From Heligmosomoides polygyrus polygyrus (taxonomy: Eukaryota; Nematoda; Chromadorea; Rhabditida; Heligmosomidae), in NCBI GenBank assembly GCA_947396885.1, contig OX377201.1, positions 70,468,983 to 70,532,982 on the forward strand: 64,000 nt of DNA. Reading direction: 5' to 3'. This document shows, piece by piece, positions 6,627 to 45,310 of the stretch (position 1 is its first letter; every line of letters begins with the position of its first letter). The notes under the pieces are model-generated. The model saw nothing but the letters and a program-made list of their open reading frames with translations, was not told the origin of the DNA and made no database searches. Position numbers and translations under genes: made by a program.

Positions 6627-7821
6627 TTAGGTTGTAACGAAATAAATGGCACTGAACCACTGTAAATTTAAACAGTTAATATCTCGGCTTGTAGGCAAGT
6701 TTATTAATTGAAATAAAAACCTTCTGATTCTACACATCTTTGCCAATGCGACACAAGCTTTTTTATCCCAGTAGCATAAAAATCAGAAGCTCTGGAATTG
6801 ACGAAATCTTCGAAGGCACTTTCGGCATCCTGTTGGTATTTGAATATTTTCCCTACCAAGAAGTCGCCAAGATGCTTGAAGAAATGGTAGCCTGTTGGGG
6901 AGAGGTCGGGAGAAAACGGAGGATGTGGTAGAGTTTCAATGCTCAGCTCGTTCAATTTCTGCAACGTCATTCGTGCTACATGGGGGCGAGCATTGTCGTG
7001 CAGAAGGAGAACTCGCCTTTGATTTACCAAGGCCGGCCGGATATCCTTCAACCTTTTCATCATTTCTTCAATTTCAATGCAGTACTTCTCTGCCGTGATG
7101 GATTCACCGGGAGGGAGGAAGCTGTGGTGAATAATTCCCAGCGAACACCACTATACTGTCACCATTACTTCCTTTTGGTGCAATTCCGGCTTCGCGAAAA
7201 CCTTGGGGCTCTCATCGCTGTCCACCCACTGTGCCGATCGCCGCCTGTTGTCGTACATTATCCATTTCTCGTCACAGGTTACGATGCGATCAAGGAATGG
7301 GTCCGTTTCGTTCCGTAGAAGCAGTGCGGACGAGATCTCATATCGTCGGTTTCTTTGCTCCTCAGACAGCTCGTGAGGCACCCATCTTTCCAGCTTTTTG
7401 GTCTTTCCAATTTCCTTCAGATGCCGGGCAGCTGTGTTGTGACTGACGCCAAGAACCTTCGCTATCTCTCTGGTACCTTTGTGTGGATCCTCCTCTACCA
7501 CGTCTCTCAGCTTGTCCTCATCATGTCCTTGTGGAACATCCTTGACCGAATGCGGCGTTAATCTTCTCGTCCGCCTCCTTAGCTGTAGTGCCCAGCTTGA
7601 ATTCATACAAGTAAATGCCTCGGATTACCCTTTTGCCCATCTGCAAAAAAGTCAATAAAACTCTGAAGTTTTCTCACTTTTACATAGAAACTACTCACCG
7701 GTAGAGCAAAGTTTGCGCTTCCAAATGATATGCCACATGTTACGGTTTGTTCCTGATCAAACGCGTAAAGACGCGCCAAAAAATGGCGCGAGCCAGTGCC
7801 ACTTAATTCGTTACAACCTAA
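6627..7821 (-). mobile_element. Mariner element with intact terminal repeats
   Basis: A 1195-bp element flanked by the TA duplication at 6625-6626 and 7822-7823. The terminal inverted repeats start TTAGGTTGTAACGAA and agree at 27 of 29 positions when the flanking TA is included. It carries a minus-strand transposase pseudogene and is inserted inside the CR1-type LINE, whose reading resumes on the far side, so the mariner is the younger of the two. Confidence 0.85.
6704..7640 (-). pseudogene. Mariner transposase, inactivated
   Basis: The protein would bind the terminal repeats and cut and paste the element at TA. The N-terminus (MGKRVIRGIYLYEFKLGTTA, from 7640) is in one frame. A deletion and frame change near 7530 removes part of the helix-turn-helix region, and a second frame then runs KGTREIAKVLGVSHNTAARH, TCDEKWIMYDN (first catalytic Asp), VMVTV, a TAG at 7151-7153 where relatives have Trp, FLPPGESITAEKY, and LLHDNARPHVAR (second Asp). 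The third catalytic position of the D,D34D triad reads SPTGYHF instead of SPTDYHF: codon GGC at 6890-6892, one transition from GAC. Upstream of the ATG is a TTTTTTGCAG that could be a splice acceptor. Three independent lesions make it inactive. Confidence 0.85.
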
Positions 7822-8530: not shown

Positions 8531-9421
8531 GTGGGTCAGGAGCGAGGAACGTCGATTGATGTTCGAACTGGAAATCTTGCGCATTATCGGTATCGGAAGC
8601 CCAGTAACAAGAACATCATCGTGCACTTCCGTTCAGCGCATCCACGCTATACTAAAAGGACTACTGTTCGGAGCATGTTCCGTACTGCTGCATTGGTATC
8701 TTCCAACGGCGACTTGAAGTCCTTGTCAATGGCATTGGCATCCCACATTGCGTTATCAAATGGATATGTGGCGGAAAACATGCCCAGAAGAGGTCGTCGA
8801 CCACCAGCAGCATCAATACACTCTGCTCAAGAAGAACGTAACAAAGTTCCTTTCTCGGTGCATTTTATCACGGATGCACTAAGCACTCAAGTACGGGACT
8901 GTGTTCGCAGGGCGGAATTAGATAACCTTGTAAGGGTTATTGACATTCCCCCGGCTAACCTCAAGGCTCGACTTGTTAGGAACCGTCTCTATGATAACAC
9001 CTGCACAACGCCGTCCTGCATGGTCTGCCCATACGGTAAGGAAGGTGATTGCAGAGTGTTTGGTACGGTGTATCTCATTACCTGCACCGAATGCAGGGAA
9101 GAATACATCGGCGAGACGGGCAGACCTCTTTGGGTCAGGGTGAAAGAGCACGCTTATGGGTTGAATAAGTGCAAGGTCTCTACTCCATTGGGGGAGCACA
9201 GACTTCGAATCCATAATGGCACGACGATTGGGGTGGAGGTGACGATCTTAGCACGCGAATCCGATATTGCAGCGCGGAAGACCCTGGAGGCGTTGTGGAT
9301 AGCGTTCAAAAACCCCACAATTAACAGGAAAGAGGAGCGGGTGGCCGTTATTCAGGAGCTGACTCCATTTGCCCACCTCTGTGGGCTTCACCCAGGAGGG
9401 CGCCAATCAGAAAGTCGCTGA
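8531..9421 (+). CDS. Penelope-like element: RT thumb plus GIY-YIG endonuclease (5'-truncated)
   Basis: A single 296-codon open frame. Residues about 12-85 (YRYRKPSNKNIIVHFRSAHP onward) correspond to the thumb/C-terminal end of a Penelope reverse transcriptase; the palm with its catalytic Asp residues is missing. A Cys cluster follows (C158, C163, C166, C174), then a GIY-YIG nuclease domain: VYLITC at 180-185, EYIGETGRPL at 191-200, the conserved Arg203 and His207 (RVKEH), and Glu253 in TLEALWIAFKNPTINR. All expected catalytic residues are present and the frame is unbroken, so the nuclease half looks recently active. In intact elements the GIY-YIG domain nicks target DNA for reverse transcription. 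The start is where the frame opens; the real initiation codon was lost with the 5' truncation. Confidence 0.82.
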   Translation: MGQERGTSIDVRTGNLAHYRYRKPSNKNIIVHFRSAHPRYTKRTTVRSMFRTAALVSSNGDLKSLSMALASHIALSNGYVAENMPRRGRRPPAASIHSAQEERNKVPFSVHFITDALSTQVRDCVRRAELDNLVRVIDIPPANLKARLVRNRLYDNTCTTPSCMVCPYGKEGDCRVFGTVYLITCTECREEYIGETGRPLWVRVKEHAYGLNKCKVSTPLGEHRLRIHNGTTIGVEVTILARESDIAARKTLEALWIAFKNPTINRKEERVAVIQELTPFAHLCGLHPGGRQSESR

Positions 9422-20485: not shown

Positions 20486-21170
20486 GTGGCAACGCTGAAT
20501 GTGGGTACGTTGTTGGGCTGCTCCTTTGAGTTGGCAGAGGCACTGGAGCGAAGGAAGATTGACTTGTGTGCGGTGCAGGAGACGAGGTGGTCCTGTAGCA
20601 AGTCAAGGGACATAGGCCGAGGCTGCAAAGCCGTTCTGTGTGGCAGTTCCAGGACCACCAGCGGTGTTGGCATAATCGTTTCCGAACGGTTCCGAGACGC
20701 GATTGCAAGCGTGGAACGTTTCAATGACCAAGGATGAATTTTGGAGCCTGCTTGATGAGAAGGCAGCAGAAGTGCCGTCACAAGACGTAATCCTTGTCGC
20801 AGGTGACCTTAACGGACACGCTGCGAAAGACGGGTACAGCTGTCATGGTGGTCTCGGTTTTGGTTCACGTAACGCCGATGGTGAGCGTATCCTCGAGTAC
20901 GCGGAGTCGCACGACCTCACCATCGTGAACACCAGATTCCGAAAACGTGAATCCCACCTTATCTCTTTCTACTGCGGGAATTCTAAAACGCAGATAGACT
21001 TTGTCCTGGTGCGAAATCGTGACCAAGGGCTTGACACGGACGCGAAGGTCGTGCCGTATGAAACGGTCACCACACAACACCGCCCACTGATTTGCACTAT
21101 GAGGATCACATCACCGATGTTTAAGCAGGTCGAACAGAGCGTCCGTCAAGAGTCAAGTGGTGGCGACTGA
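20486..21170 (+). pseudogene. RTE copy 1, AP endonuclease domain
   Basis: Reads ATLNVGTLLGCSFELAEALE (motif Asn), CAVQETRWSCSKSRDIG (catalytic Glu), then, after a deletion of about 100 bp near 20725, TKDEFWSLLDEKAAEVP, VAGDLNGH (Asp-Asn pair), KTQIDFVLVR and QHRPL (His). The deletion removes the YAPQTG segment and changes frame. The domain would nick the target strand to prime reverse transcription. Confidence 0.8.
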
Positions 21171-21205
21171 AAGATAATGAAGCAGCTGTTACTTCGCGCA
21201 TTCGG

Positions 21206-23160
21206 TTGCCGACGGTCACGACCGTAGACCCGACATGGCAAATAGCCACCGACGCGATTCTCAATGCTGCGCGTTCCGAACTCGGCCCTACGAAACCGGG
21301 ACGGCGTAAGGTCGAAAAGCAGACATGGCTGTGGACTAACGAAGTTAAGGAAAAAGTTCGAGAGAAGAAGAGATTATACCACGCATTCCTCGGCGATAAG
21401 ACAGCCGACAAATGGCGTCTGTATCAGGAAGCCAAGAAAGCCGCTAAGAAGGCGGTAGCCGTTATAGGAGCCACTCATTACGATGATATCAACGGGAAGC
21501 TTGAGTCGCGCGATGGCGAGCGATTTCTTTATCGACTCGCGAAGGTCCGCCATCGCCAGACTGAGGATGTTGAGAAGTTCTTTGGCATCAACGATGAGAA
21601 TGGTCATCTACTCATGGACCGCAAGATGGTTATGAACCGATGGTGCACCTACTTCGAGGAAGTCTCGACAGTAGAGTTTGCTCATACGAGCATTCCATCT
21701 TCTCCTCCTGTATACGGTCCCGTTCAGAAAATCACCGTAGAGGAGGTAGAAGCGGCTTTGAAGAAGATGAAGTCGGGCAAGGCAACGGGCCCCGATGATT
21801 TGGTGGCCGACTTATGGAAGTCGAAATCCTGGTACCCAACGAAGTGGCTGGCGACGTTCTTCAACCAGGTTATTGCGGAGAGGAAAGTGCCCGAAATCTG
21901 GTAGAGAAGCACGACGATTCCAATTTGGAAAAAGAAGGGCAGTCCAGCAGACTGCGCAAACTACCGTCCAATCCGACTGCTTTCGCATAGCGTGAAGATC
22001 TTCGAGCGGATTGTCGACCGGCGCATTCGTGATGCCGTCCAGCTCTCTACCAACCAGTGCGGATTCGTAGCTGGTTGTGGCACAGTCGATGCCATACACG
22101 CCGTTCGTCTTCTGATAGAAAAACACCGCGAGAAACAGAAGCCGGTGCATCTTGCCTTCCTGGATTTGGAGAAGGCCTTTGATCGCGTTCCGCGTGAAGT
22201 GATATGGTATGCCTTACGGGAACATGGAGTCCCGACGAGCTCATAGAGTGGGTGCGAATTCTCTACTCTTGTCCAAAGAGTCGAGTTCAAGCTGCAGCTG
22301 GAACCTCGATGGAGTTCCCCATCTCTATCGGGGTACACCAGGGTTCTGCGCTTTCCCCACTTCTCTTTGTTGTCGTCATGGATGCCATCACACGAGATCT
22401 TCAGAAGCCCGTCCCTTGGACGTTGCTTTATGCCGATGACGTGATGCTCGCTAGCGAAGACAAGATTGAACTCCAGCGGCAGGTACAAGCTTGGTGCGAT
22501 CGCTTGGAGAGATTTTGACTCAAACTTAATGTCAAGAAGACCGAGTATATGACGACCGATGAAGACGAGTCCAGCTCCATTAAGGTAAATGGCATTGAGC
22601 TGCCACGTACTTCGGTATTCAAGTACTTGGGATCAGCAATCGCGTCCGATGGCGGTTTACTCGTTGAAGCCAACTCACGCGTGAGTGCAGCGTGGTCCAA
22701 ATGGCGCTCTCTGACGGGAGTGCTCTGCGACAAGAAGATACCAGAGCGTCTAAAGTCGAAGATCTACAGAGCAGTCGTCCGACCTGTAGCTATTTACGGA
22801 GCTGAGTGCTGGCCCGTTACCAAAGAAATTGAAATGCGCCTCAGCGTAATGGAAACGAAGATGCTGCGGTGGGCGGCCGGAGTTACGCGCTTGGATCGAG
22901 TACGCAGCGAATCCATACGGCAGAGGTTCGGTGTCACCCCGATATTTGAGATGCGCGAAGCTCGTCTGCGATGGTACGGCCACGTCCTTCGCGCAAAAGG
23001 TGACACTGCCCGAAAGTAGGAGGGCGACCAAAACAGCGGCGGCTTGATACGCTGCATCAGGACTTGAAGATGGCTGGGTTGCACCCTGATCAGGCATTTG
23101 ATCGGGAGAAACGGCGCCAACATTCCAGGAAGGCGGACCCTGCAACTAAGCGGGACAAAC
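21206..23160 (+). pseudogene. RTE copy 1, reverse transcriptase domain
   Basis: In order: KSGKATGPDDLVADLW, a TAG at 21902 in place of the Gln codon kept in copy 2, YRPIRLLSHSVKIFERIV, LAFLDLEKAFDRVPREVIWY, then a one-base deletion near 22235 that shifts frame, VHQGSALSPLLFVVVMD, LLYADDVMLAS (catalytic Asp pair), a TGA at 22516 for Gly, then VFKYLGSAIASDGGLLVEAN and MLRWAAGVTRLDRVRSE. Near 23015 a small deletion removes the IGLNLEVPGKRPRG segment seen in copy 2. All lesions are point-like, so the insertion is fairly young. Confidence 0.85.
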
Positions 23161-23464: not shown

Positions 23465-25141
23465 GCACGGCCAACACCACCTCTTTTTCTTTATAATTAC
23501 ACACCCTTACCCAATTATACTTCCTTACAGTTATTATTTTACACTATACTATTTACTTTCTTTTTTCCTTTATTTCTTAAAATGTTCGTTTTTTAAAAGC
23601 AGAAACGAGCTCATATATGCGCTCTCTTGGGAAACGACTCTTTCATTTTCGTGTTTTCATTATTTACCTTAACAATACATAGTCTATGCAACACTTAAAC
23701 ACACTTTTGTGCTTCCCTTTTGCCACTATTTTCCTATTTCTCCTCACTTTTGCTATTTCCTCTGCCTCTGCCTTCTTCTTGTATCCTTTCTATCCCCATC
23801 ACTTTTCTATCATTGTCATCACATGCACTTATATCCCATCTCCTCACATTTTATCGTGACTCTTCCTCGTAAGTCCTCATTTCTTCGTCTCGCGCGAATC
23901 ATCTCTCATCTCACTCTACATTTATTTCATTTTAGACACATTCCCGCAATGTCTTCTTCATGCCATCGTGCAGCTGCTGTTCTTGCTCCACCTCGGTCGA
24001 CCAACACCATCGCCTTCAGACTCCCCTTAGCGGAGACGATGGACGCTGCTCGCGCTGCCACCACACCCTTATCCACTCTACTTGTCATCATCAACATCAC
24101 TGCGGCTCTCATCATCATCAGCGCTTACCGCATCAGTCTGTCTCGCGGAATCCTCGGCACGCACATCGCGCATCATCGCCGCTTTCCCCACCACGCTGTC
24201 GCCGCCTTAGTCAGTGGGTGTCACCTCCACGGGAACGGAAGTCACGGTACGAGGCTTTTCTCAAGCCTCGTCAACGTGATCCGTGACACGTGGAGCCCTA
24301 TTTATTCTCATCCATTTTACCCTCTCCGCACCGGTCCTCCTCTTATTTTGGTCGCCCTCGCACATTTCCTAAAAAACTTCACACTTTTCTCCTCGCGCTT
24401 CTCGTTCTTCTCGTAAACCTCCCTCTGCTTCCTCTTCTCCTCTTCCTGCTCTTGTAGACACACCCACTCATTCTCGATCTCCTACTCTTCCTCCTCCTTC
24501 ATCTCAACCACCTCTCTTTGTATACCGTCCATCCACCTCCTCATCTGCGCTTGCATATCGCCGTCGCCTTAGGGCAAAACGCCGCCTTAACGCGTCTACC
24601 ACCATATCCTCTTCGCCAACGCACACGCACGCTCAACATCTACAGCCTCAACAGCCCCTTAGCGCGTCCACCTCACGGCAGTAGCAGTCATCCTCAGGCC
24701 TAACGCCTGAAGTCGTGCCTACGCTGTTTCCTGCACGTAGTCCGCTTATCAGGCGACCGGTGCCCATTGAGGCCGAGCCTGAGCTCTTCAACACAATTAG
24801 CAATTCGGACCGCTCGACAGCATGCCGTTGGCAGACCAGCTCCAATTTCTGAACATACGATCAGATCGTCACGCATTCTGTCATGGTCCTATAGTTACAT
24901 CTACAACCCGTCGGCACCACTTATTTGGGGCCCACCTCGGCAACAGCAGGCCAGCACGCAGACCACACCACCACGATCTGCACAGCCGCGCGAGCCTACC
25001 AGCCTCACATTAGGATGTGTATGCCGTCGCCGCCGTCGCTGCCGTCGCCACCGTCCCACTCCTGCCCTTAGAGCACCCATGCTTTTCGGATAACTCGGCT
25101 TGCAGGGAGGGAATCTGGTGGAACCCCACCAGCCGGCGTGA
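23465..25141 (+). other. C/T-rich unit leading to a gag-like ORF; no domain seen
   Basis: T- and C-rich with a long plus-strand open frame (23709-24416) that is hydrophobic and His-rich by composition. From about 24450 a Ser/Pro/Arg-rich reading appears in broken frames and may be the disordered N-terminal part of the zinc-knuckle protein at 25142. Confidence 0.35.
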
Positions 25142-25780
25142 GACGCGACCCCAAGCGGTTCCTCCAGCGCAAGCCCCAGCACGGCAGGCTTCCTTAGAGC
25201 CTTCTGCGCAGCAGCCTCACAGGCTACAAGCACCGCAGCTCTTCGCAAGGTCGGCGCAGCCCGCACCAACATCGCCCGCGCCATCGCCATCGCCACGACG
25301 GCCAGCCACACCATCCCGCCAGGCACGCGCAACCCAGCCGTACCGCCACCACCCGTTCGCCGGTCTATGTATGAACCAGCACACTTAGTCCAGTCCACGC
25401 TACCTCCGGTCTTAGAATGTTGGTTCTGTTATGAGAACCACTACTCGTCATCCTGCCGGAACGTACCGCGGATCAGCGATCGCATCTACGTCCACATGAG
25501 AAATGCGCGCTGTTTCCGGTGTGGCGGACACCACTTAGACCATGAGTGCGAGCAGCATGCAAAAAGGTGTCTTTTGTGCGGTCTGGACAATCACCACATC
25601 GCGTTTTGCCCTCACAACCGCCAGGCAGATCGAGACCTCAGCAATGAGTGCTGGCTTAGGCAAATGCGTAGGGCACGCAGCAAAGCGTTCATCGCTCGCC
25701 GCCTTAAGGAGGAGGACGAAGCATGGCTGAGCTACCATCTGTATAAACTGGAGCTCGAAGAAAGACACACTGAGGAATAA
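25142..25780 (+). CDS. Gag-like protein with three zinc knuckles (partial)
   Basis: About 212 codons open on the plus strand. An Ala/Pro/Ser-rich N-terminal half is followed by three knuckles: CWFCYENHYSSSC, CFRCGGHHLDHEC (both CX2CX3HX4C) and CLLCGLDNHHIAFC (CX2CX4HX4C), then a basic, helix-prone tail ending LYKLELEERHTEE. The first knuckle followed by RISDRIYVHMRNARCFRC resembles BEL/Pao gag proteins, which would bind the element's RNA. The upstream frame is broken by stops near 25093 and 25138, so this is a fragment. It points the opposite way to the LTR element next to it. A LINE ORF1 is the alternative. Confidence 0.55.
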   Translation, partial: DATPSGSSSASPSTAGFLRAFCAAASQATSTAALRKVGAARTNIARAIAIATTASHTIPPGTRNPAVPPPPVRRSMYEPAHLVQSTLPPVLECWFCYENHYSSSCRNVPRISDRIYVHMRNARCFRCGGHHLDHECEQHAKRCLLCGLDNHHIAFCPHNRQADRDLSNECWLRQMRRARSKAFIARRLKEEDEAWLSYHLYKLELEERHTEE

Positions 25781-25791
25781 AATGGTATATT

Positions 25792-26142
25792 TACTCTCTT
25801 CTCTATTTACTTCCTCTTCTTTATTTCTTTCCTTATATAGTTATAGGTACCAGTTTGTGGTAGTGGCGACACGAGTGGGATATATGTTTATGGCAGAGCA
25901 GTTCACATAAGGCACATGAAATCATGAGGGAAGGAGACGTCCAGTGGAAGGGTGCGGGCGAGGCTGGCAGGGAGACAGGTCGACCGGTCGTCAGGCGTCT
26001 TCGAGCTCGAATCCCCTTGTAGCTCCTTGCTCGTCCTCCGATCGTGCTCCGGCTCCTGTAGTCATCCGAGATCTTCATTAAGCTTGAGCCATGCCTTGCG
26101 TATCGATTGCACATTTGTCGGAGGATTTCCTAGGCTCTTACA
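25792..26142 (-). repeat. 3' LTR of the helicase-bearing retrotransposon
   Basis: About 351 bp. The TG start lies directly after the purine tract; the far end reads GAAGAGAGTA on the coding strand, so the terminal CA is TA. Near that end are CTATATAAGG (25831-25840) and AATAAA (25820-25825), plausible TATA and polyadenylation signals. The far boundary rests on the 5-bp ATATT duplication and is less certain than the near one. Confidence 0.6.
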
Positions 26143-26153
26143 CCTCCCCTATT
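26143..26153 (-). promoter_or_regulatory. Polypurine tract
   Basis: AATAGGGGAGG on the coding strand abuts the TG of the 3' LTR, the expected site of plus-strand DNA priming. Confidence 0.7.
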
Positions 26154-26292
26154 CACAAAACGTCCGTCCTCGGACGTTGGACGGGGGCATGGCGCAGCTG
26201 ATACGCAAGGCGGGGATAAGGTTCAAAAAAAGGGAAAGAATGAACTACTAATGTAAATGAATGGTGAAGTCTTACCACTAAGTCCGAGATTC

Positions 26293-29200
26293 TCACGACA
26301 GAATGTCCTCCAACGTTGACGTGCAGATGAACACTCGGTGTTCATGCGCCCAGTGGAGGACCCATGCCCAGTTCCTCAGGCCACGCAAAGCGGTGACGTT
26401 CCCGAGCACGATTTGGCCATGGCGACAGCGCGTCAGGGCGACGTTCATGCGCAACGGGTCGTCCAGGAAGTCGCTGGAGTCGGGATCCACGTCGGAGCGG
26501 GTCGTGAGGAGGATGACGATATCCACCTCTCGTCCTTGAACGGAATCGACAGTGTGGACTAACTCCTTGGCGCGCCGCGTAGTCCTGGAGAAGGCGAGCC
26601 TGCTCCTTGTAGAAAGTGATGATCGCCAGAAACGTCGGCGGGATTCCTTTCGCAAGGAGGGCCTGGACGATGTCGCGGCAGTATCGCGCTTCCGTCTCGT
26701 TTGAGTGGGAGCCTCCGAGTGACCTTGTCGATCTCCCCTCCACGTGACCAGTAGGAACGGCACCTTCTGGTTAGGTAGACGGAGGAGGTCCGTGAACATA
26801 CTGCGCTGCTGCTCCGTGGTACCGCTGATTAGCTGTCCTTGGTAGAACAGACTATTTGGCAGGTCGTTCAAGGCTGGATGGGCCCGGAATGTAGTAAGCA
26901 ACGGAGCAACGGGGACGTCCCTGGAGAGGAGGAGACTCATCGCTCCCCGGGCTCCATGGATGGCGGCGGTTGACGAGCGGTCGCATCTTATGTGGGGCGC
27001 GAGTTGGTGCAGGTCGCCAATCATTATCATCCGGGAACCATGACGTCATAGCGACAAACGCCGGCTCCGGTATCTGCGACGCTTCGTCGCAGATGAGGAC
27101 CTGCGTTTTCCCGAGGTATGTGTTGAAAAGTCCGGATGATCGCGTGGAGTTGAGAAGCGTCGCCGTTGTCATACACACAATCCGAGGAGGGCGCAGTCGG
27201 AACATGATGCCGACCGCTTTTTCGGTAGCGAGCGGGTTCTCTCGTTCCGCTATGACATATTTGTCGCGTTCGGCCTCGGAAAGCGTCAAGGTCCGCTCTG
27301 GATGGAAGATGGAAGTCTCGATGAGCTCACGTCCTCGGGCGTATTTTGTCAGCGCCTTGGCTTCGTAATCTCGTAGCTGACCCTGGTAGTCCCTAGCGAG
27401 ACGTCGAAGAATGGTGTGAAGGTCCACGGGCGTTACCGGCGTTCCTTCGCGTAGCGCCGAGTCAGCAACGAAGCGCAGGATAGGGAGGTGCTGGAAGTCA
27501 GACAGCGACAAGAGTGTTTCAGTAAATTGGGCAACAGCCGCATTTGTGGTTGCAGTGGCGACCACCAGATGTTCCTCATCCGCTTCGGCCAGCGTCGCTG
27601 CGATAAGTGCACCGACCACCGTTTTGCCGGTTCCGAAGGCCGCTATGGCCAGCACAGGGGTGTCGGAGGTCCCATCTGGATGGCACGTATTTGGTCGTCC
27701 CGCAGGGCCAGATCGCGATTACGGACTCGGACCGATAACACTGGCGGGGGAGGGGAAGGGCGGGTAGAAAGGAGGCGAGATGCGCCTCCGGGTCATAAAC
27801 CGCGTCCAGGATCTGGTTGGCTCGCCAAGGTGTGTGCACGTCTTCATCCAGACCAGCGAAGATTTGGTGCTCCGCGAGAAGGGTACTGGGTCCGCACCTG
27901 TAGGGAGGGTGGCCCGGCGGACGCATATGTCGACTTGGGTGCGGTCGTCCGGGCCTGTCTGACCGAACTCCTGGATGGCTCGGCGCAAGGGTTGGTGACA
28001 GTTGATCGTGGAATGGAGTTCCACGTCCGTGATCCTTCGCGCGAAGTCGAACGATGTTCGTGATATCGTCAAGCGTCCAACAACCTCCGAATCCACGATC
28101 CACACGTCAGTAGGGCGCTGGAGGTTCCATCCGGTTTCGAAAGTGATTCCTTCCAACTCGAATCGAAGGCGGATGGGGTGTGCGTGGGGACTGGTAACCG
28201 TAGCCATGACACGGTGAGTACTTTTGTCGTCGGCTGCGTAGGAGGTTGCCGCCAATGCTGCGCAGGCTGCGCTGAAAAGCTTGCCCATCCGCTTACGGGC
28301 CACCTTCTTGTTCCTAGGATAGTTGGAGAAACGCGCCGCCCGATCTCGAACCCATTCCTCGTCGGCTGGGGTAGGACGGAAGACGCGGAGGTGCAAGATC
28401 GCGGCGTCTGGTTAGGCTGGGAGGAACACTCGGATAGCGTTGGTGAGGAAGTACTGGGCAGCCTCTGAAGCTGGTAGTTGAGAGAAGCGCATGGCCGTGG
28501 AGACGTTGACCCTTGTTTCCGCGAGAAGAAGTTGGTTCTCCCGAGTTTCCGTGATATCGAATTCGCAGATCTTAGGCGCGATGGAGATGGCCTCGGGGCA
28601 GCCTTCCAGGGCGATGCGGAAGTTGTTTACGCGATCGTTTCTTGCGCCACGACGCGGTACCTCGAGGACCAGTCCAAGAACAATCTCGTTCGCTGAAGGC
28701 GGGGTTACCAGTATGAACTCATGCACTCGGAAGAAGTACGGGTGACGAATGTCCATCGCGGTAACGCGAGGAAGTCGAGCTCCTGCGAGCGTGGCCTCGG
28801 GGTTCTCGAGTGCGGCCCGAGTTGGTTTTATGGACTGGACCCAGACGAAATCCTTTACCGACATTTGGGAACGGTCAAAGCCGCGAGTTTGGGAGAGGGA
28901 GTTGACGGCGTATTGGTCCAACACGATACAATGGAGCTCCAGATGGTCCGGACCGGGGACCAGGAAATCCTTGGCTTCCAGAACGACGCCTTGGCCGTGA
29001 TTTTTGGAGACGACCTGATATAAGGCCGGTAGTGCACCGTTCCGCAAGGGAGGGCAACGCAGGGTAGGAGGGCGTCCTTCTGGCGACTGCGGAAGGTTGG
29101 GGTCGGTGCTGCGGAAGCGTCCTGCGTGCAGGGAAGCGATGATGTTGTCTGCCTGTCGTCTTAACGCCAGTGCGTCGCAGATGGACATCAGCTCCACTAT

Positions 29201-29482
29201 CGCTAGTGGTAGATTGGGAGAGGGAGTTCCGACGAAGTGACGAGGGAAGAGAGACCGCGCAAACTTGCCGCTGAAATATCCGGCGGGGCCAAGGTGACGA
29301 TAAACGAACGATGGGAGGTGGCTCGTGACCGAGGCCTCGGAAAGATTCGAGTAGATCGGCCGACGTGCCAGGTACTGTGCCCAGGGGTGGTATGGCACCC
29401 ATGCATTAGTGTAGTTGTCCGGAGTCGTCGGAGGCAGAGGGTGTCCTGCCATATGAGGCTTGGCTCCATCAAGATTAGGCAT
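26293..29482 (-). pseudogene. UPF1-like superfamily 1 helicase in the retrotransposon's third ORF
   Basis: Roughly 1060 codons from MPNLDGAKPHMAG (29482) to a stop at 26293. The N-terminal 356 residues (to a stop at 28412-28414) have no recognised fold; EFILVTPPSANEIVLGLVLE suggests a beta-rich domain. The helicase motifs then follow in order: a Q motif (LRDDQIRAIQMG near 27695), Walker A FGTGKT (about 27620-27634), Walker B ICDEASQIPEP (about 27085), motif III GDLHQLAP (about 27010), motif IV TFYKEQARLLQ (about 26615), motif V VDSVQGREVDIVILL (about 26550) and motif VI NVALTRCRHGQIVLGN (about 26445). DEAS, VDSVQGRE and NVALTR are UPF1/MOV10-group signatures (SF1B, RNA/DNA unwinding). At least four frameshifts and one stop interrupt it. 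It lies between integrase and the purine tract, where some elements carry env. Confidence 0.82.
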
Positions 29483-30629
29483 GGCCTCAGACTGACTTAA
29501 ACGCTCACGCTTCGGTGGAACAGCGGAGGCCGATGAGGAGGTCGACGATGCGGGAGTATGTAGTCGTCGTGGAGCGGAGAGGGAAGTTGGATTCCGTGAA
29601 GTGGAAGGAAGCGTGGACGGCTTCGATGTCGACGGTTGTGTTCCGAAATTTGAGCATCTGCCCGAGAAATGCTGGGTTCCGTGAGTGCTGGAGATTTAGG
29701 TGCCGGAGTTCTCTGCGCCCGAGTGGAGTCGGAAGGTTCTGCGATGTTAAGGCGCTCCAGCTGCGGAGGTGATGGAGGTATCGGCTGGTTCGTTGTTTGC
29801 TGTCGGAGGAAGAGAAGCTAAATTCGTAGAAAGTTAGAAGACTGGTTGTGTAAAGGTGGACATGTATTGTTAGAGCTGCTTACTATCTGTAGTCTGATGT
29901 GGTTCAATGTATTGGACATCAGCCCGGATGACGGTTGCAATAGGGACGGTAGTCGTCGAAGAGAGGTCGTCGACGGATGGAGCGTCGCGCTGTGGTTCCG
30001 TAGCTTGGGCAGCAGCTCGAGAGGTGACCGTATAGGTCGGAGTGACGTTCGTTGCTGGAAAGAGCAGAGATTGATGGGGGAGCAGATGAGGGTTAAGAAA
30101 AGGACGGTTAAGAGAGAAAAAAAAATACCTGGGAGGAGCGAGCGAACAGTATTTTGTGGTTCCAAGGTTTGGGCAGCAGCCCGGGGGTCCGAAGGGGTCG
30201 AGTCTAAAAGAAGTAACCGGTATACGTTGGTATGTGGAGAAAGAGGATCTACAAAGGTGTAGCCGTACCGATTTCCCTTAGTGGAGCCGAGCTCTCGTGA
30301 AGGGCCATCGACTGAGTGGAGCCGACCAGTGCCGTAGAAACGGGGAAGCTTGCTCCACTGGGTGGGGTTTCGGCCTCAGCCTCCGAGTCTGCAGGACTGC
30401 CCGTAGGCGGCGGCGAGGTTGTTGAAGGGCTCCGGCTCTGGCTCGCCTGCATGGAAGTGGAGGACGAGCTCGAGGTCTTCTCGGACGTGGAGCTCTGCAT
30501 GCTCTGCATGCTGGCTCGGCGTGCGGCACGTAGCGGCCGAGGTGGCGGTAGTGGGCGCGCAGCGTTATCCGGCTGGTCGCTCATAGTGAGTGCAGAACGA
30601 GAGTGAAGTTTTGAGCGTGATTTGATCAA
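29483..30629 (-). pseudogene. Ser/Pro-rich leader of the third ORF
   Basis: 30629-30249 encodes a low-complexity protein (MSDQPDNAARPLPPPRPLRA, then Ser/Thr-rich runs) ending in a stop. Further down, in the frame that leads into MPNLDGAKP, comes another Pro/Ser/Thr-rich run ending PPKRERLSQSEA. A CTCCCAG|GTATTT at about 30130 and a TTTCTACGAATTTAG at about 29820 could be splice sites joining the two parts, so the helicase protein may begin at 30584 rather than 29482. No domain recognised; probably disordered. Confidence 0.4.
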
Positions 30630-30792
30630 TCTGAAATGGTACGAGGTGAGTGACGGGGTGGAGGGGAAACGTAATTGTAGCGCGGCGAGACAGACGAAAG
30701 AAGAGGACGACGCGTAAAGAACGATCCGAGAAGAGTGTAGAGATGGAGGTGCGAGTAATGGGGGTATATGCTAGGTGAAGTTATAACGTCGC

Positions 30793-32625
30793 TCAACGAG
30801 CCCTGGAACGAGTGTTGTAAGTGTGTGTAGCAGTAGTAGTGGAATCCGTGAAGTTCGAGTCAGGTAGTGAATTTTGGCATCCATAGCCTCTTAGTTCCAC
30901 GGAAGTTGCTTCTATCGACGAAAGAGCTTGCTCTTCTTCTGCATGAAGCCAAGGAGACGTGAACACTGGATCAGATGGGGCGAAGCTTTTCTTCACCTGG
31001 TTCATGTGAACACGGCGTGGTTTCGCCTGTGGTGCCGTGATGCTGACTATAATGAGGTGAGGGTGATCGACTTTGATGACGCGATATTGTCCTAGCCATG
31101 GGTAACAGAGTTTCTGAGATAGTCCAGGTTTAGGAGTGAAATCCCGAAGGTACACCCGATCCCATACAGCAATGGATAACGGCGGGCGGGAAAACTTGTC
31201 ATACTGCCGTTTCATAGTGTCGATGCGGACCCGGTTGCGAGCTGCGGCGATATTCCAGGCCTCGTGCAGTGAATTGACGAGGGATTCCTTATAGAGGCCG
31301 TAGTCTACGTCCACTTGGAGGTGACGCTCGCGTTTATGTTGCAGTAGGAGGTCAATGTTTAGTATAGGGTCGCGCTCAAAAACCAAAAAGAACGGCGATT
31401 CGTTGGTGCTGCTATGGGTGGAGGTGTTGTACGCGAACGTGCAACTTGACAGGTACAGATCCCAATCACTTTGGTCTTCACGGATGTACGCGTGGAGCAT
31501 CTCTTGAAAAGTGGCAAAGACGCGCTCGCAGGGGCCATTACCTTCGTGGTGATATGGTGTTGTAAAGTAATGATTAATTCGAAGAAGTCGGCCTAGTTCT
31601 GTTAAGAGGTCCCCTTTTAGATACGAAGCGTTATCCGTCACTAGTTCGACCATTGCACCGAAGATGAGGACGCAGTGGGTCATAACGGCGTGGGCGACTG
31701 TAATGGCCGTACAATCTGGAAGGGGAACTGCTATCACGTACTTAGTGAAGTGGTCGATGAGGCAAAGAATATACTTGTTCATCCGAGACGATGGTCTGTA
31801 AGGTCCACTGAGGTCTAAGTGAACTCTGCTGAAAACCGCGTCAGTGAGCACCGGAAGAAGTTTCTCCCTGTTGGCTGGGTGAGGACGTTTGCGCTGACAG
31901 GGGTCGCACGACCGTACGAATTTAAACACGTCTTCCTTCATAGATGGCCAGAAGAAGCGGCGTGAAATTTTGGAGAGGGTAGTCCTCCAGTTAAAGTGGC
32001 CTCCAGCGGTGGGATTCGAATGGAGCTCGATGCACACAGGTTCCCGGAGCCGAGCGGGTAAGACTAAAACTTCTCGAGAGCGCGCGCCGGAGTGGGTAGC
32101 GGGTCGGAGGTAGTAAAGGCAGCTATTCTTTTTAATTATACATTTATCGAGAAGAGCGAGGTACGCTTCTTTGATATCTTCTAAGGGCGAGTTTGCGAAC
32201 GACCCGGTTTCTATAAATTGCATGAGCTGTGAGCACATTGGGTCCTGTTTCTGTTCCAAAAGGATGTCGTAGGGACGAATGAAGCGAGGAGAGTGGAGAG
32301 GAATTTGGTGGCTATGAGCTTGATGCTGCCTGGGTGTTTGAACTAGGCATCTCGGAAATTCTATGATATCGTCGTCTTCGGAATCGTCCGTCGTCGGGGT
32401 AGGTGGGGAAGTAATGCTACGACTGAGGTGATCGGCTAACACATTAGAAGAGCCTTTCATATATTCGATGGAGATATCGTAGCTTTGCAACTCCACAACC
32501 CAACGGGCTAGATTGTCGTGGGTTTTTCGATGCCTGAGAAGGAAAGTTAGAGGTTTGTGGTCGGAGAGGACCCGGGTGTGGTTGCCGTAAATGGTGGCGC
32601 GGAAGAATCGAAGGGCGCTTACCAT
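30793..32625 (-). CDS. Pol C-terminal half: RNase H end and integrase
   Basis: A 610-codon open frame. Residues 1-70 are the end of RNase H (LSDHKPLTFLL, then ISIEYMKGSSNVLADHLSR); the same frame is readable upstream to about 32700 (IGYFSKALTPSQQKW). The integrase follows: zinc-binding H202, H210, C240, C243, then the catalytic core with Asp271 (HLDLSGPY), Asp331 (LVTDNASYL) and Glu367 (EGNGPCERVF). The last two are separated by 35 residues, the classical DD35E spacing. A C-terminal domain (VYLRDFTPKPGLSQKL, then YPWLGQYRVIKVDHPH) completes it. The order RT-RNase H-integrase with GPY-type tail is that of Ty3/Gypsy. All catalytic residues are intact. Confidence 0.88.
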   Translation of the reverse strand: MVSALRFFRATIYGNHTRVLSDHKPLTFLLRHRKTHDNLARWVVELQSYDISIEYMKGSSNVLADHLSRSITSPPTPTTDDSEDDDIIEFPRCLVQTPRQHQAHSHQIPLHSPRFIRPYDILLEQKQDPMCSQLMQFIETGSFANSPLEDIKEAYLALLDKCIIKKNSCLYYLRPATHSGARSREVLVLPARLREPVCIELHSNPTAGGHFNWRTTLSKISRRFFWPSMKEDVFKFVRSCDPCQRKRPHPANREKLLPVLTDAVFSRVHLDLSGPYRPSSRMNKYILCLIDHFTKYVIAVPLPDCTAITVAHAVMTHCVLIFGAMVELVTDNASYLKGDLLTELGRLLRINHYFTTPYHHEGNGPCERVFATFQEMLHAYIREDQSDWDLYLSSCTFAYNTSTHSSTNESPFFLVFERDPILNIDLLLQHKRERHLQVDVDYGLYKESLVNSLHEAWNIAAARNRVRIDTMKRQYDKFSRPPLSIAVWDRVYLRDFTPKPGLSQKLCYPWLGQYRVIKVDHPHLIIVSITAPQAKPRRVHMNQVKKSFAPSDPVFTSPWLHAEEEQALSSIEATSVELRGYGCQNSLPDSNFTDSTTTATHTYNTRSRAR

Positions 32626-32699
32626 TGCGAATAATTCTATATGGGTGGGGCTCCATTTCTGTTGAGAGGGTGTTAGGGCCTTACTAAAGTAACCTATTG

Positions 32700-33810
32700 C
32701 CGAGGGGGACCCGATATGTCCTGTTGTTGGAGGAGGGCGACACCTACTGCAATTTTACTCCCATCGGTATATAGGATGAAGTCCTTGTCGAGGGGGAAGA
32801 CGAGGCAAGGGCGGGAGACAAGGATGGTTTTGAATTGCTCGAAAGCTTCTTACTGAGGGGCCTCCCATTGGAACGGGGTGTTCTCTTTGCACAGTGCGTA
32901 GAGGGGTGCGGCTATGGAGGCAAAATTCTTGACGAACTTGCGGGTGAAATTAGCCATACCCAGGAAGCTTTTGACAGACTTAGTAGTTGTAGGAGTGAGC
33001 ATATTTTGGATTGCCTTGATATTTCTTTCTGCTGGAGCATAGGTGGCGCCTGAGATTTCGTGTCCTAGAAAGGTGATTTTGGATTGAGCGATATTAACGA
33101 GTTCTTTCCTGATACCTTAATGTTGAAAAGGCGGAATCGCTCGAGAACTTTACGCAGAGAATTAACGTGAGAATCAAAATCCTTGTCGAAGACAATGATG
33201 TCGTCAAGGTAGGCCAGACAATTGTCGTCCAGGCCGGAGAGGATTCGTGACATGGCACGGCAGAAGTAAGTCCCAGCGTTGCGCAACCCAAATGGCAGAT
33301 AGACGAATTGGTAGACGCCGCGATGGGTGGCCCATCCGCACTTCGCTTGACTCTCTGGAGAGAGAAGGAGTTGCATGTATCCGGAGGCTAAATCGAAGGA
33401 GGTATAGAAACGGTTGCCGGATACACGCTCCAGGACGTCCCCAACACGCGGTAGCGGGTAACGATCTGGGATGGTGATGTCGTTGAGGGGACGAAAGTCG
33501 AGGCAAACCCTTAATGAACCTCCTTTTTCTTAACAAGAACGGTGTTATGTACCCAGGGCGTGTCACTTTCTACGATCCTTCCGGTTTGGAGAAGTTCGTT
33601 GATGTGGTCATCCAATTCTTTTTGGAGGCGCGCGGGTATCCGTGTAGGGCGGTAACGAGATGGTGGGACCTCAGTAGTTGTTTTAATAGTGATCACGGTG
33701 TGATCATACAACCCGAGATCATACGAAGAAGAGGAGATGCGGTCTTTAAATTCGGTGAAAAGGTCGTGTAGTATGCGACGCTGTTCGTCGGTAACGTCGG
33801 CCTTGTTCAA
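32700..33810 (-). pseudogene. Ty3/Gypsy reverse transcriptase and RNase H start, frameshifted
   Basis: Reads DDHINELLQTGRIVESDTPW and VHNTVLVKKKE, then, after a one-base loss at about 33533, LRVCLDFRPLNDITIPDRYP, FDLASGYMQLLLSPES, FGLRNAGTYFCRAMS and CLAYLDDIIVFDKDF (catalytic Asp pair) in a new frame. A second shift near 33110 leads to IAQSKITFLGHEISGATYAP and then the RNase H Asp region (LYTDGSKIAVGVALL near 32760). Further in-frame stops occur (for example near 32853). The motif set is clearly Ty3/Gypsy; the enzyme is not made from this copy. Confidence 0.85.
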
Positions 33811-33880
33811 GTTAAGTTGAAGCGGGGTGTTGGGTGACAGTGATGGTTCCTGGCGCAGAGTGTTGACTGATGGGGTCCTG

Positions 33881-34273
33881 CTAAAAGCAATCCGGGGGTT
33901 CTACAAGTATACCCGAAGGGAGATCGAGAACAGGTTCTGCTGTAGTCAAGTGCTGGTCTTTGTAGATGATATGTGGTGATTCGGTAGGGTTGCTGAGGTA
34001 CAGCCGAGCGGTAGGAGGCTGGAACACACCGGGTGCCACCAGGATGTTGTCGCCAGCTAAAAGCATGCCGTGGTTCATCCGGGTGACGTCCTCCCGAGTC
34101 GACGAGTCCGCTGCATAACAAGGGACGAAGCCTTCTGAACCGGGTTGTAGTACCACTGTTGTTGCAGCTCGTACGATGGAAGGAGAGCTAGATGACGGGG
34201 GATCAAATCGGTTGTGGTCCTTGGGGGTGGCGATTATGGGAACTGTTTCTTTGCCTAAGAGGAAGGCATGTTT
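33881..34273 (-). pseudogene. Pol linker upstream of reverse transcriptase (truncated)
   Basis: 131 codons open: KHAFLLGKETVPIIATPKDH, VLQPGSEGFVPCYAADSS, GVFQPPTARLYLSNPTESPH. This beta-rich stretch corresponds to the segment between protease and reverse transcriptase in Gypsy-type polyproteins. The protease motif (D-S/T-G) is absent. The upstream limit coincides with the end of the 33-bp LTR stub, so the missing part was removed by the deletion. Confidence 0.5.
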
Positions 34274-34306
34274 CACATTTGTCGGAGGATTTCCTAGGCT
34301 CTTACA
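34274..34306 (-). repeat. 5' LTR stub, 33 bp
   Basis: Identical over 33 bp to the first 33 bp of the 3' LTR; coding-strand start TGTAAGAGCC. It is followed immediately by pol sequence, which shows the rest of the 5' LTR, the primer-binding site, gag and protease are gone. ATATT (34307-34311) is the outer candidate duplication. Confidence 0.7.
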
Positions 34307-34311
34307 ATATT

Positions 34312-41975: not shown

Positions 41976-42620
41976 TCAGTAGCGTTTGTCCCGCTTGGTG
42001 GCGGGGTTCACTCTTCTGGTGTGGTGACGCCATTTCTCCCGATCAAATGCTTGATCGGGATGCACACCAGCTATCTTTAAGTCTAAGTGCAACGTGTCTA
42101 GCCAACGTTGCTTCTTGCGTCCTCTGGGCCGTTTTCCAGGGACTTCAAGATTCAGGCCAATCTTACAGACAGTGTCGTCGTTAGCGCGAAGGACGTGGCC
42201 ATACCATCGTAGACGAGCTTCGCGCAACTTGTCGGCTATCGGGACGACACCGAACCTCTGTCGTATGGTGTCATTGCGAACGCGGTCCAATCGCGTTACT
42301 CCGGCCGTCCACCTTAGCATCTTCGTCTCCATTACACTGAGGCGGCTTTCAATTTCCTTCGTCAAGGGCCAGCACTCAGCACCGTACGTCGCTACTGGGC
42401 GGACGACAATTCTATAAACCTTCGACTTGAGGTACTCGGGTATTGTCTTGTCGCAGAGAACCCCAGTCAACGACCGCCATTTGGACCAGGCTGCACTTAC
42501 GCGCGCATTCACCTCCAACTTTAGGCTGCCATCGGGCGTAACTGTTGATCCGAGATACTTGAAAGATGTGACTCGTGAGAGCTCAGTACCATTGATCTTA
42601 ATGGATCCATGCTCATTCAC
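41976..42620 (-). pseudogene. RTE copy 2, C-terminal region
   Basis: 214 codons: SIKINGTELSRVTSFKYLGS, VSAAWSKWRSLTGVLCDKTI, MLRWTAGVTRLDRVRNDTIR, ARLRWYGHVLRANDDTVCKI and, near the end, HPDQAFDREKWRHHTRRVNP. This is the usual tail of RTE proteins. It continues the reverse transcriptase after the frameshift near 42615 and stops just before the microsatellite tail. Confidence 0.88.
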
Positions 42621-43728
42621 ATTCCGTCGTCAAGTATTCCGTCTTTTTGACGTTTAGCTTGAGTCCGAACAATGCTAAGCGATCGCACCACGCCTGTGCC
42701 TGTCGCTTGAGTTCGGCTTTGTCTTCACATGCAAGCATGACGTCATCGGCATACAGCAACGTCCAAGGAGCTGCCTTTTGGAGATCTCGTGTAATTGCAT
42801 CCATGACGACCACGAAGAGCAGTGGGGAAAGCGCAGACCCCTGGTGCACTCCGACAGAGATCGGGAACTCCATCGAGGTACCCGCTGGTGCTCGTACTCG
42901 GCTTATTGGGCACGAGTAGAGGATGCGCACCCACTCAATAAGCTCTTCAGGGACGCCGTGTCGTCGCAAAGCGTACCATATAACTTCTTGCGGGACGCGG
43001 TCGAAGGCCTTCTCCAAGTCCAGGAAGGCTAAATGCAACGGTTTCTGTTTTTCGCGGTGCTTCTCTAGCAGAAGACGAACGGCGTGTATGGCATCAACCG
43101 TCCCACAGCCGGCAACGAAACCACACTGATTATTGGAAAGCTGAACGACATCCCGAATACGTCTATCGACAATTTGCTCAAAGACTTTCATGGTGTGCGA
43201 AAGTAGGCGAATCGGACGGTAGCTAGCGCAGTCCGCAGGGCTGCCTTTCCTCTTCCAAATCGGGATAGTCGTGCTTTGCTGCCAACTCTCAGGCACTTTC
43301 TTCTCAGCAACAACGTGATTGAAAAACTCAGTCAGCCAGTCAGCAGGGCACCAGCCCTTCGAATTCCACAGGTCGGCTGGCAGGTCATCGGAACCAGTGG
43401 CTTTGCCTGACTTCATCTTCCTCAGGGCTGCTTCAGTTTCGCTCACTGTGATCTTCTGAACGGGACCGTATACAGGTGAAGCAAAAGGAACAGCAGGATG
43501 TTCAAATTCTACATTCGAGATTTCCTCGATGTAGTTGCGCCATCGCTTTACAGCCCTTTTACGATCCATCAGAAGATGGCCGTTCTCATCGTTAATACCA
43601 AAGAACTTTTCGATGTCTTCTGCTTGGCGACAGCGAGCTTTGGCGAGTCGGTAAAGATAGCGCTCACCATCGCGCGTTTCCAGTTTTTCGCTGACCTCAG
43701 CGTAGTATGCGGCTTTAGCAGCAGCCAC
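42613..43728 (-). pseudogene. RTE copy 2, reverse transcriptase domain
   Basis: 371 codons open: KFFGINDENGHLLMDRKRAV, KSGKATGSDDLPADLW, CASYRPIRLLSHTMKVFEQI, AFLDLEKAFDRVPQEVIWYA, VHQGSALSPLLFVVVMD, LLYADDVMLACED (catalytic Asp pair) and FGLKLNVKKTEYLTTECE, then a frameshift. Apart from that shift and the one between 43728 and 43965 the catalytic core is unbroken. Confidence 0.9.
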
Positions 43729-43964
43729 TGCCTTCTTTGCCGCTTTCCTCGCTTCTCGACAATTCCGTCAATTACAGACTGTTTTGTCACCGATAAATAC
43801 GTGATACAGCCGTTTCTTTTCCCTGACCTTTTCTCTGACATCGTCAGTCCACAGCTAAGCCTGCTTGTCGACCCAACGCCGTCCAGGCTTCGTTGCGCCG
43901 AGTTCGAGGCGTGCAGCCCGGGTTATCGCATCGGTAGCCTCTTTCCAGGTTTCGTCGACAGTTG

Positions 43965-45104
43965 TCACCGTCGGCAACCGAATGCGAGAGATAACAGCTG
44001 CTTCCTTTCCCTCAATCGCCACCATTTAATTCTAGCCGTCCCACACCGCTCGACACGTTTACACCTCGGAGGTGTGATCTTCAGCGAGCAGATCAGTGGA
44101 CGGTGTTGCGTGGCAACCGTCTCATACGGCACGGTCTTCGCGTCTGTGACAAGGCCTTGGTCGCGACGCCTAACAAGGACATAGTCAATCTGCGTTTTGG
44201 CGTTCCCGCTATAAAACGAGATGAGGTGGGAGTCACGCTTTCGAAATTTGGTATTCACGATGGAGAGGTCATGTGCGTCTGCATACTCAAGTATACGCTC
44301 ACCATCGGTGTTGCGTGACCCATAGCCAAAACCACCATGACAGCTGTAACCGTCTTTCGCTGCTCTGACGTGACCATTAGGGTCTCCTGCCACAACAACC
44401 ATATCTTCTGACGGCACTTCCGCTGTCTTCTCATCAAGCAGGGACCAGAACTCGTCCTTGGTTTGCTCGGAGCAACCTGTCTGCGGAGCATACGCGGAAA
44501 AGAAATGACACCGTCGCTCTTCTACGGCGACAACAATCTTCATCAAGCGGTCATCGAAACGTTCTACGCTTGCAATCGCGTCACGGAAACGCTCGGAAAC
44601 GATCATACCGACACCACTGGTGGTCCTGGGACTGCCGCACAGAACGGCCTTGAGGCCGCGGCCAATGTCCCTCGACTTACAGCAGGACCACCTCGTCTCC
44701 TGCACCGCACAGAAATCTATCTTTCTTCGCTCCAGTGCTTCAACCAACTCGCACGAGCGGCCCGTCAACGTACCCACATTCAACGTTGCTACGCGGGTCT
44801 TGCCTACGTTGCGGGACTTTCGGACTAGCTCAGTTGCCCCCCGATGCCGTCCTCGCATCAGGGACCCTCGCATACTTTCCACACTCGCCGGGCTTTGCGA
44901 GTGCGCGTCGGCTCCCGCGGACGCCGTAGCATTATCTTGAGACGTCCTCTCGAGCTCTGTAACGTCATCAACCATATGATGTGACACAGAATGTTCGTAG
45001 GCCGGCCTGTCACTAGGGCCTGTCGCCTGCATTCGATTGTCCGTGATTGGCTCGGCTTGCAAAAGCAAGTAGTTTCCAGTGGCACCACTTGGAGGAACGG
45101 ACAT
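43965..45104 (-). pseudogene. RTE copy 2, AP endonuclease domain
   Basis: About 380 codons. The first in-frame ATG (45128) lies in the flanking duplication and target DNA; the element's own first ATG is at 45104 (MSVPPSGATGNYLL). Endonuclease motifs: ATLNVGTLTGR (Asn), CAVQETRW (Glu), SAYAPQTG (Tyr), AGDPNGH (Asp; other copies have AGDLNGH, so Leu to Pro beside the catalytic Asp), KTQIDYVLVRRRDQG (Asp), ATQHRPL (His). The frame breaks after WWRLRERKQ, where relatives continue into the linker to reverse transcriptase. Confidence 0.85.
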
Positions 45105-45125
45105 CGCCACCGGCAACAGGTCCTC

Positions 45126-45310
45126 CATCGAGCCTTTCTACGTTCCATGCTTTTCTGGCGTTTTGTCCACCGCACTTTACATTGTATATCAAATCCATTA
45201 CTAGAGGGATAAATATGTAGATTTGTTACTTAGCAATGCGCTAGGATCTGTTTTTCGTCTCAAGTTGGTAGTAGTTTCATAGTGAGAAGTTCATTCTTTC
45301 GTTAGCCTAG
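45126..45310 (+). mobile_element. CR1-type LINE endonuclease, 3' piece
   Basis: After the second copy of the duplication the plus strand reads FLAFCPPHFTLYIKSITRG then YVDLLLSNALGSVFRL. CR1 endonucleases have FL.F......Q.V..PTRG.N.LDLLLSN in this place. It continues the piece ending at 41936. Confidence 0.6.

Follow-up and report, generated by a model that had tools for sequence, protein, structure and literature searches.

A decayed Ty3/Gypsy retrotransposon of Heligmosomoides polygyrus with a UPF1-like helicase in the frame after pol, and joined gene models of the same kind in other strongylid nematodes

In the Caenorhabditis elegans retrotransposon Cer1, an additional open reading frame (ORF), CERV, encodes a protein of 517 amino acids with no obvious homology outside the nematodes, its message joins gag-frame exons to the CERV ORF, and export of the unspliced Cer1 genomic RNA requires it (PMC10309623). 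The long terminal repeat (LTR) retrotransposons of bdelloid rotifers likewise carry an extra enzymatic ORF at the env position, specific to each family and reportedly expressed from spliced messages (PMC5408684), but the captured third frames (ORF3s) described there are of GDSL esterase, DEDDy exonuclease and envelope or membrane types, and the passages of that article available to us describe no helicase among them. Insect retrotransposons are likewise carriers of superfamily 1 (SF1) helicases, including two Ty1/Copia fusions, in Aedes aegypti and Leptopilina boulardi (PMC4686597, PMC5563155, PMC6338049); the enzymes are reported to be Virga-like viral helicases, borne in ORF1 or ORF2 of long interspersed nuclear elements (LINEs) or fused to Copia. 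Here we analyze an element in a 64-kb stretch of the H. polygyrus polygyrus genome (contig OX377201.1, positions 70,468,983 to 70,532,982; hereafter the window) in which the position occupied by CERV in Cer1 is taken by a broken ORF3 with a UPF1-like helicase. Whereas the word helicase appears nowhere in the main text of the Cer1 study (PMC10309623), and whereas the insect enzymes are viral, the strongylid element has a UPF1-like helicase in an ORF of its own and belongs to a Ty3/Gypsy lineage. No UPF1-like helicase serving as ORF3 of nematode Ty3/Gypsy elements was found in the literature searched; captured ORFs and viral SF1 helicases in retrotransposons are known, and it is this enzyme, this host group and the apparent lineage-wide spread that look new.

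Read on the minus strand from 34306 down to about 25792, the locus presents in a single orientation reverse transcriptase, RNase H, integrase, the broken ORF3 with its helicase, a polypurine tract and the 3' LTR (Table 1). The polypurine tract lies immediately 5' of the LTR start TGTAAGAGCC at 26142, and the first 33 bp of the LTR occur in identical copies at 34306-34274 and 26142-26110, a pair that BLAST lengthens to 36 bp at 97% identity; a 20-base word from the LTR start has no third site within the window. Because the same 33-bp LTR start stands at both outer borders, pol and the helicase are parts of one element. The claim of a preliminary description of this DNA, that a Ty3/Gypsy element contains the helicase, is thus borne out by the LTR start on both sides and the polypurine tract after ORF3. 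The limits proposed there, 25792-34306, are consistent with an element running from LTR end to LTR start. The 3' LTR end has as its sole marker a 5-bp AATAT repeat (25791-25787 and 34311-34307), which is weak border evidence since such short repeats easily arise in AT-rich DNA and which would make the LTR terminate in TA instead of CA; inspection by eye also locates an AATAAA word within the 3' LTR, at 25825-25820.

The pol region has the Ty3/Gypsy order of reverse transcriptase, RNase H and integrase, with both the DD35E triad and the H2C2 domain present. The integrase ORF (610 amino acids, 32625-30793) matches the Pfam families Integrase_H2C2 (2e-18) and RT_RNaseH (9.6e-9), its match to rve (7.8e-5) falls under the Pfam cut-off, and its catalytic residues are spaced D-59-D-35-E; the reverse transcriptase piece with the YLDD word (33376-33065) matches RVT_1 at 3.4e-11. 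Between the integrase and the polypurine tract, ORF3 extends over about 4 kb and comprises a Ser/Pro-rich start, a domain that matches no Pfam family and an SF1 helicase of UPF1-like type. Two relatives of ORF3 found in the searches described below, P0098 from H. polygyrus and P0099 from Nippostrongylus brasiliensis, likewise open with stretches that appear by eye to be of low complexity; in P0098 part of the middle ORF3 domain is tandemly doubled, through assembly, annotation or real duplication. The helicase has the core features of SF1 enzymes, with motifs I, II, III, V and VI and an AAA_12 match. In the RecA2 piece (27030-26293), which contains GDLHQLAP, VDSVQGRE and NVALTR, AAA_12 scores 84 bits (1.3e-23) against a cut-off of 27, and UPF1 in the PDB is matched at 9.5e-21. 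The AAA_11 match of the RecA1 piece (1.3e-4, 22.3 bits) stays below the Pfam cut-off of 27, and the relative P0019 reaches 38 bits. The pol and helicase words YLDD, DD35E, FGTGKT, DEAS, GDLHQLAP, VDSVQGRE and NVALTR, listed in the preliminary description, were thereby confirmed.

The association of the helicase with Gypsy parts recurs outside H. polygyrus, in joined gene models from six other strongylid species. Searches of 5.8 billion proteins with the RecA2 piece, the integrase ORF and the ORF3 part of P0029 gave 23, 73 and 4 matches, respectively (the last including P0029 itself), and all 99 proteins found were mapped for gag, pol, the ORF3 domain and the helicase. Nine of them combine a gag or pol part with ORF3 or helicase sequence, always with the gag or pol part upstream. 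They come from Oesophagostomum dentatum (P0029, P0069), Cylicocyclus nassatus (P0043, P0091), Haemonchus contortus (P0016, P0097), Ostertagia ostertagi (P0061), Ancylostoma ceylanicum (P0090) and Ancylostoma duodenale (P0022). The integrase query yielded six of these among its 73 matches (P0029, P0043, P0061, P0069, P0090 and P0091), the helicase query two among 23 (P0016 and P0022) and the ORF3 search P0097. The clearest is P0029, with RNase H and integrase in residues 1-507 and the ORF3 domain in residues 549-748. In N. brasiliensis, P0099 joins the ORF3 domain to the P-loop only, and its tag (Q1695_006008) is two away from that of the pol model P0049 (Q1695_006010), the contigs of both being equally long; P0056 consists of gag and pol only, and P0098 of the ORF3 domain only. 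Anatomy and recurrence together make it very likely that the element in the window is a decayed copy from a helicase-bearing Ty3/Gypsy lineage of strongylids, for which we infer the layout LTR-gag-pol-ORF3-LTR. A non-envelope enzymatic ORF after pol seems to be common to this lineage, a sharing known from gene models and not from the relatives' genomic DNA.

The integrase tree gives an indication of the age of the pairing. It holds 66 rows, P0061, P0069 and P0091 being too short to enter, and its bootstrap had not fully settled. The window integrase falls within a 40-row clade (100/100) in which every row with a named source is from a nematode. The ORF3-linked rows in the tree are P0029, P0043 and P0090, plus P0049 by its tag. 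P0029 and P0049 lie in the 11-row group of the window, P0043 in a neighboring 17-row group, and the fork uniting these groups is weak (80/84); P0090 lies in a 4-row group that splits first within the 40-row clade (100/99), placing ORF3-linked rows on both sides of that split. If P0090, whose row is 46% filled and sits on a long branch, is real, the pairing is hence older than the first split of the clade.

Several observations weigh against this reading of the locus and its relatives. The joined models are automatic predictions and may be artefacts, the ORF3 match of P0043 spans only 36 residues, and P0090 is divergent (28-31%) and placed on a long, half-filled branch. P0022 comes from a contig of 1,554 bp, too short for a message spliced across the whole of pol; a misassembly or an element shortened by deletion is the probable explanation. 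Pfam matches to gag are weak, being confined to P0022 and below the cut-offs (PNMA 1.4e-4, Retrotrans_gag 0.018). Among the 99 proteins, 66 are pol only and 21 helicase only, the latter making up 21 of the 23 matches of the helicase search; we think that most of these are fragments, and on that account they neither support nor refute the pairing. Lastly, the copy in the window is dead. Its reverse transcriptase, RNase H and ORF3 are interrupted by stops and frame changes and spread over several frames, and most of the 5' LTR and gag is gone, the 5' LTR giving way to pol beyond its first 33 bp. Neither the gag parts of P0016, P0022, P0056 and P0097 nor residues 1-280 of P0069, within which a protease-like DTG was noted by eye, have any match in the window (tblastn at 1e-2). 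This 5' deletion accounts for the failure to find gag and the aspartic protease in the copy, and the lineage is accordingly classified as Ty3/Gypsy, with the window copy a defective member of it. There is a close copy elsewhere, since the H. polygyrus protein P0005 matches the RecA2 part of the element in three pieces at 86-97% identity.

The preliminary description had called the helicase UPF1-like, and this stands in part. A profile built from eight relatives was scored against solved structures in the PDB. Its best matches are human UPF1 (152 bits) and yeast UPF1 (138), followed by SEN1 (103), DNA2 (99) and senataxin (96) and, lower still, SMUBP-2 (76), ZNFX1 (75), Aquarius-type chains (at most 34) and coronavirus nsp13 (23). 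UPF1/NAM7 is thus the nearest solved core by sequence, and Foldseek also ranks UPF1 first (9.5e-6); VIA, run on a poor model, puts another entry above it. In contrast to UPF1/NAM7, however, the two ORF3 relatives checked, P0098 and P0099, have no apparent Cys/His zinc domain of the UPF1 type: C-x-x-C/H words number one in P0098 and none in P0099 within the ORF3 domain, and the amino-terminal half of ORF3 has no Pfam match. For this reason the label UPF1-like, and not UPF1, is used, and sequence comparison supports it in part, as a placement among the solved structures scored. Motifs were counted in 20 of the 23 helicase matches and one window piece, with P0015, P0016 and P0022 excluded. Motif I is kept in both rows that reach it, DEAS in nine of nine, GDxxQL in 8 of 11, VDxxQGRE in all 19 and NVA(L/I/M)(T/S)R in 15 of 18 rows. 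Catalytic words retained in this way across the helicase relatives suggest that enzyme activity was under selection as long as the elements were alive.

The resemblance in layout to Cer1 offers a possible function for ORF3. The family does have gag, since P0056 joins to integrase a gag-like part with a CCHC knuckle (a Pfam match), and this part is common to P0016, P0022 and P0097, three gene models that fuse gag to ORF3 or the helicase and can be compared with the gag-joined message of CERV, even if P0022 is not spliceable across pol. By analogy with Cer1, ORF3 might be expressed from a separate message, spliced or trans-spliced; a TTTCAG word 46 bases upstream of the first ORF3 ATG could serve as acceptor, although acceptor-like words are common here (four per 2.9 kb). 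The product would act on the full-length RNA of the element itself, its ATP-driven travel along the RNA stripping or remodeling bound host proteins, and the new amino-terminal domain, in which there is only a hint of an OB-like barrel, might bind RNA. Unspliced genomic RNA could thereby leave the nucleus and survive nonsense-mediated decay and RNA interference (RNAi) until it reaches the gag particle, protected against the decay that the long sequence downstream of the pol stop codon would otherwise provoke. That ORF3 handles the genomic RNA of the element, in export and in escape from decay, is put forward tentatively, as an analogy that may well fail. Anatomy, recurrence and function taken jointly form the best explanation available, and we rate it slightly above even. 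More doubtful is the most specific version, in which a whole strongylid Ty3/Gypsy lineage has its envelope position filled by its own UPF1-family helicase, some of it produced as a gag-ORF3 fusion, and this helicase accompanies the genomic RNA out of the nucleus and guards it against nonsense-mediated decay and RNAi.

Other roles for the same enzyme can be envisaged. Host helicases of the ERI-6/7, MOV10 and ZNFX-1 types work in the small-RNA pathway, and ORF3 could compete with them, or unwind double-stranded RNA, so that the element escapes RNAi. Consistent with such an activity, viral-origin helicases of insect retrotransposons are reported to suppress RNA silencing weakly in a plant system (PMC6338049), and the exported Argonaute exWAGO of H. 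bakeri is described as preferring retrotransposon-derived small RNAs (PMC12852730), from which it follows that elements of this kind are under small-RNA control. No feature of the sequence, however, indicates an anti-silencing role, and the closest solved helicase is UPF1, not ZNFX1, so that we regard it as unlikely. The helicase might also work inside the particle, where it would melt structured RNA as the genome is packaged or reverse-transcribed, and the rotifer ORF3s are reported to include relatives of exonucleases that act on RNA and single-stranded DNA (PMC5408684). No evidence connects ORF3 with particles, however. To our knowledge, other Ty3/Gypsy elements do without a helicase, which counts against a particle role, and we deem it distinctly unlikely.

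The remaining alternatives concern the origin and ownership of the helicase. Captures of RNA-virus helicases, as in insect LINEs, have been published (PMC5563155, PMC4686597), and a viral source in place of the host-derived gene supposed in the preliminary description finds some echo in Pfam. The cut-off of Viral_helicase1 is 21 bits; the window piece falls short of it at 18.3, and P0016 and P0022 narrowly exceed it at 22.5 and 22.6. In the same proteins AAA_12 scores far higher (84 bits in the window, 115.6 in P0016 and 82.7 in P0022), which makes a viral origin improbable. The PDB profile scores, 152-99 bits for UPF1, SEN1 and DNA2 against 23 for coronavirus helicases, point the same way but are not decisive, since the PDB contains, as far as we know, few helicases of invertebrate viruses, which weakens the ranking of cellular over viral relatives. 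Some ORF3 helicases might instead have been retained as host genes, with selection on the worm rather than on the element keeping the motifs. That 21 of the 23 helicase-search matches are helicase only, several of them annotated as separate genes, would fit such retention; at 146 to 421 amino acids these proteins nevertheless fall short of ORF3 in length, and more than one occurs in several of the species, leaving it still more improbable. The helicase could, finally, be foreign to the element, a host gene or a second transposon that lies beside it or jumped into it, given that the copy is heavily decayed and that other transposon pieces are visible by eye in the window. Yet an LTR start stands at both outer sides, a polypurine tract follows the helicase, and the same pairing in the same order is found in nine models from six species, eight of which were reached by integrase-only or helicase-only queries. 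The LTR borders and the recurrent pairing contradict chance adjacency, to which we attach very little probability.

Table 1. Features of the element in the window, in the direction of reading.
Feature	Position	Strand	Basis or remark
Possible 5' target-site duplicate AATAT	34307..34311	.	weak
5' LTR remnant, first 33 bp	34274..34306	-	identical to 26142-26110
pol linker upstream of reverse transcriptase	33881..34276	-	tblastn with P0063, 30% over 34174-33929
Reverse transcriptase pieces (YLDD), broken	33065..33810	-	RVT_1; tblastn with P0025, 79-87%
RNase H end and integrase, DD(59)35E	30793..32625	-	Pfam; 64% to Oesophagostomum P0024
TTTCAG, possible acceptor for splicing or trans-splicing of ORF3	30631..30636	-	hint at most
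Ser/Pro-rich probable ORF3 start, first ATG 30584	30249..30629	-	ORF list
ORF3 amino-terminal domain, 356-amino-acid ORF without Pfam match	28412..29482	-	Pfam search
ORF3 middle domain	27719..28396	-	tblastn with P0098 (54%, 29518-27884) and P0099 (44%, 29488-27596)
ORF3 helicase RecA1, motifs I (FGTGKT) and II (DEAS)	26852..27655	-	AAA_11; tblastn with P0019 and P0004
ORF3 helicase RecA2, motifs III, V and VI, frame-broken	26293..27030	-	AAA_12; UPF1 in PDB
Polypurine tract AATAGGGGAGG	26143..26153	-	sequence
3' LTR	25792..26142	-	start certain; end inferred from AATAT repeat
Possible 3' target-site duplicate AATAT	25787..25791	.	weak, AT-rich 5-mer

The surroundings of the element contain further mobile sequences. 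Next to the 3' LTR, plus-strand frames at 25017-25780 include CCHC-type Cys/His words, have no Pfam match and are perhaps the gag end of another, Pao/BEL-like element; their stop codon ends 11 bases before the inferred 3' LTR end. Inspection by eye further distinguished three RTE-like LINE copies with endonuclease, reverse transcriptase and carboxy-terminal pieces (20703-23019 on the plus strand, 41976-45128 on the minus strand and 53733-55059 on the plus strand), a mariner-like transposase piece (7151-7606, minus strand) and a frame similar to the GIY-YIG end of Penelope-like elements (8531-9421, plus strand).

RNA surveillance has UPF1-like helicases among its core factors, and related forms act in transposon silencing. 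If the proposed function is true, an element lineage with a UPF1-like helicase of its own would turn the surveillance machinery to its own use, and its helicase would be the equivalent of a retroviral export factor, a host RNA-surveillance activity used by its own target. Elements of this type could be lost from repeat catalogues, because one recent strongylid repeat library discarded models that had similarity to proteins other than those of transposons (PMC13195028), a filter to which elements with an AAA_12 helicase would be exposed. The question bears on parasitism as well, in that retrotransposon-derived small RNAs are reported to be loaded on a secreted Argonaute (PMC12852730). The lineage would, furthermore, provide a testable system for the avoidance of decay by retroelements with long multi-gene RNAs.

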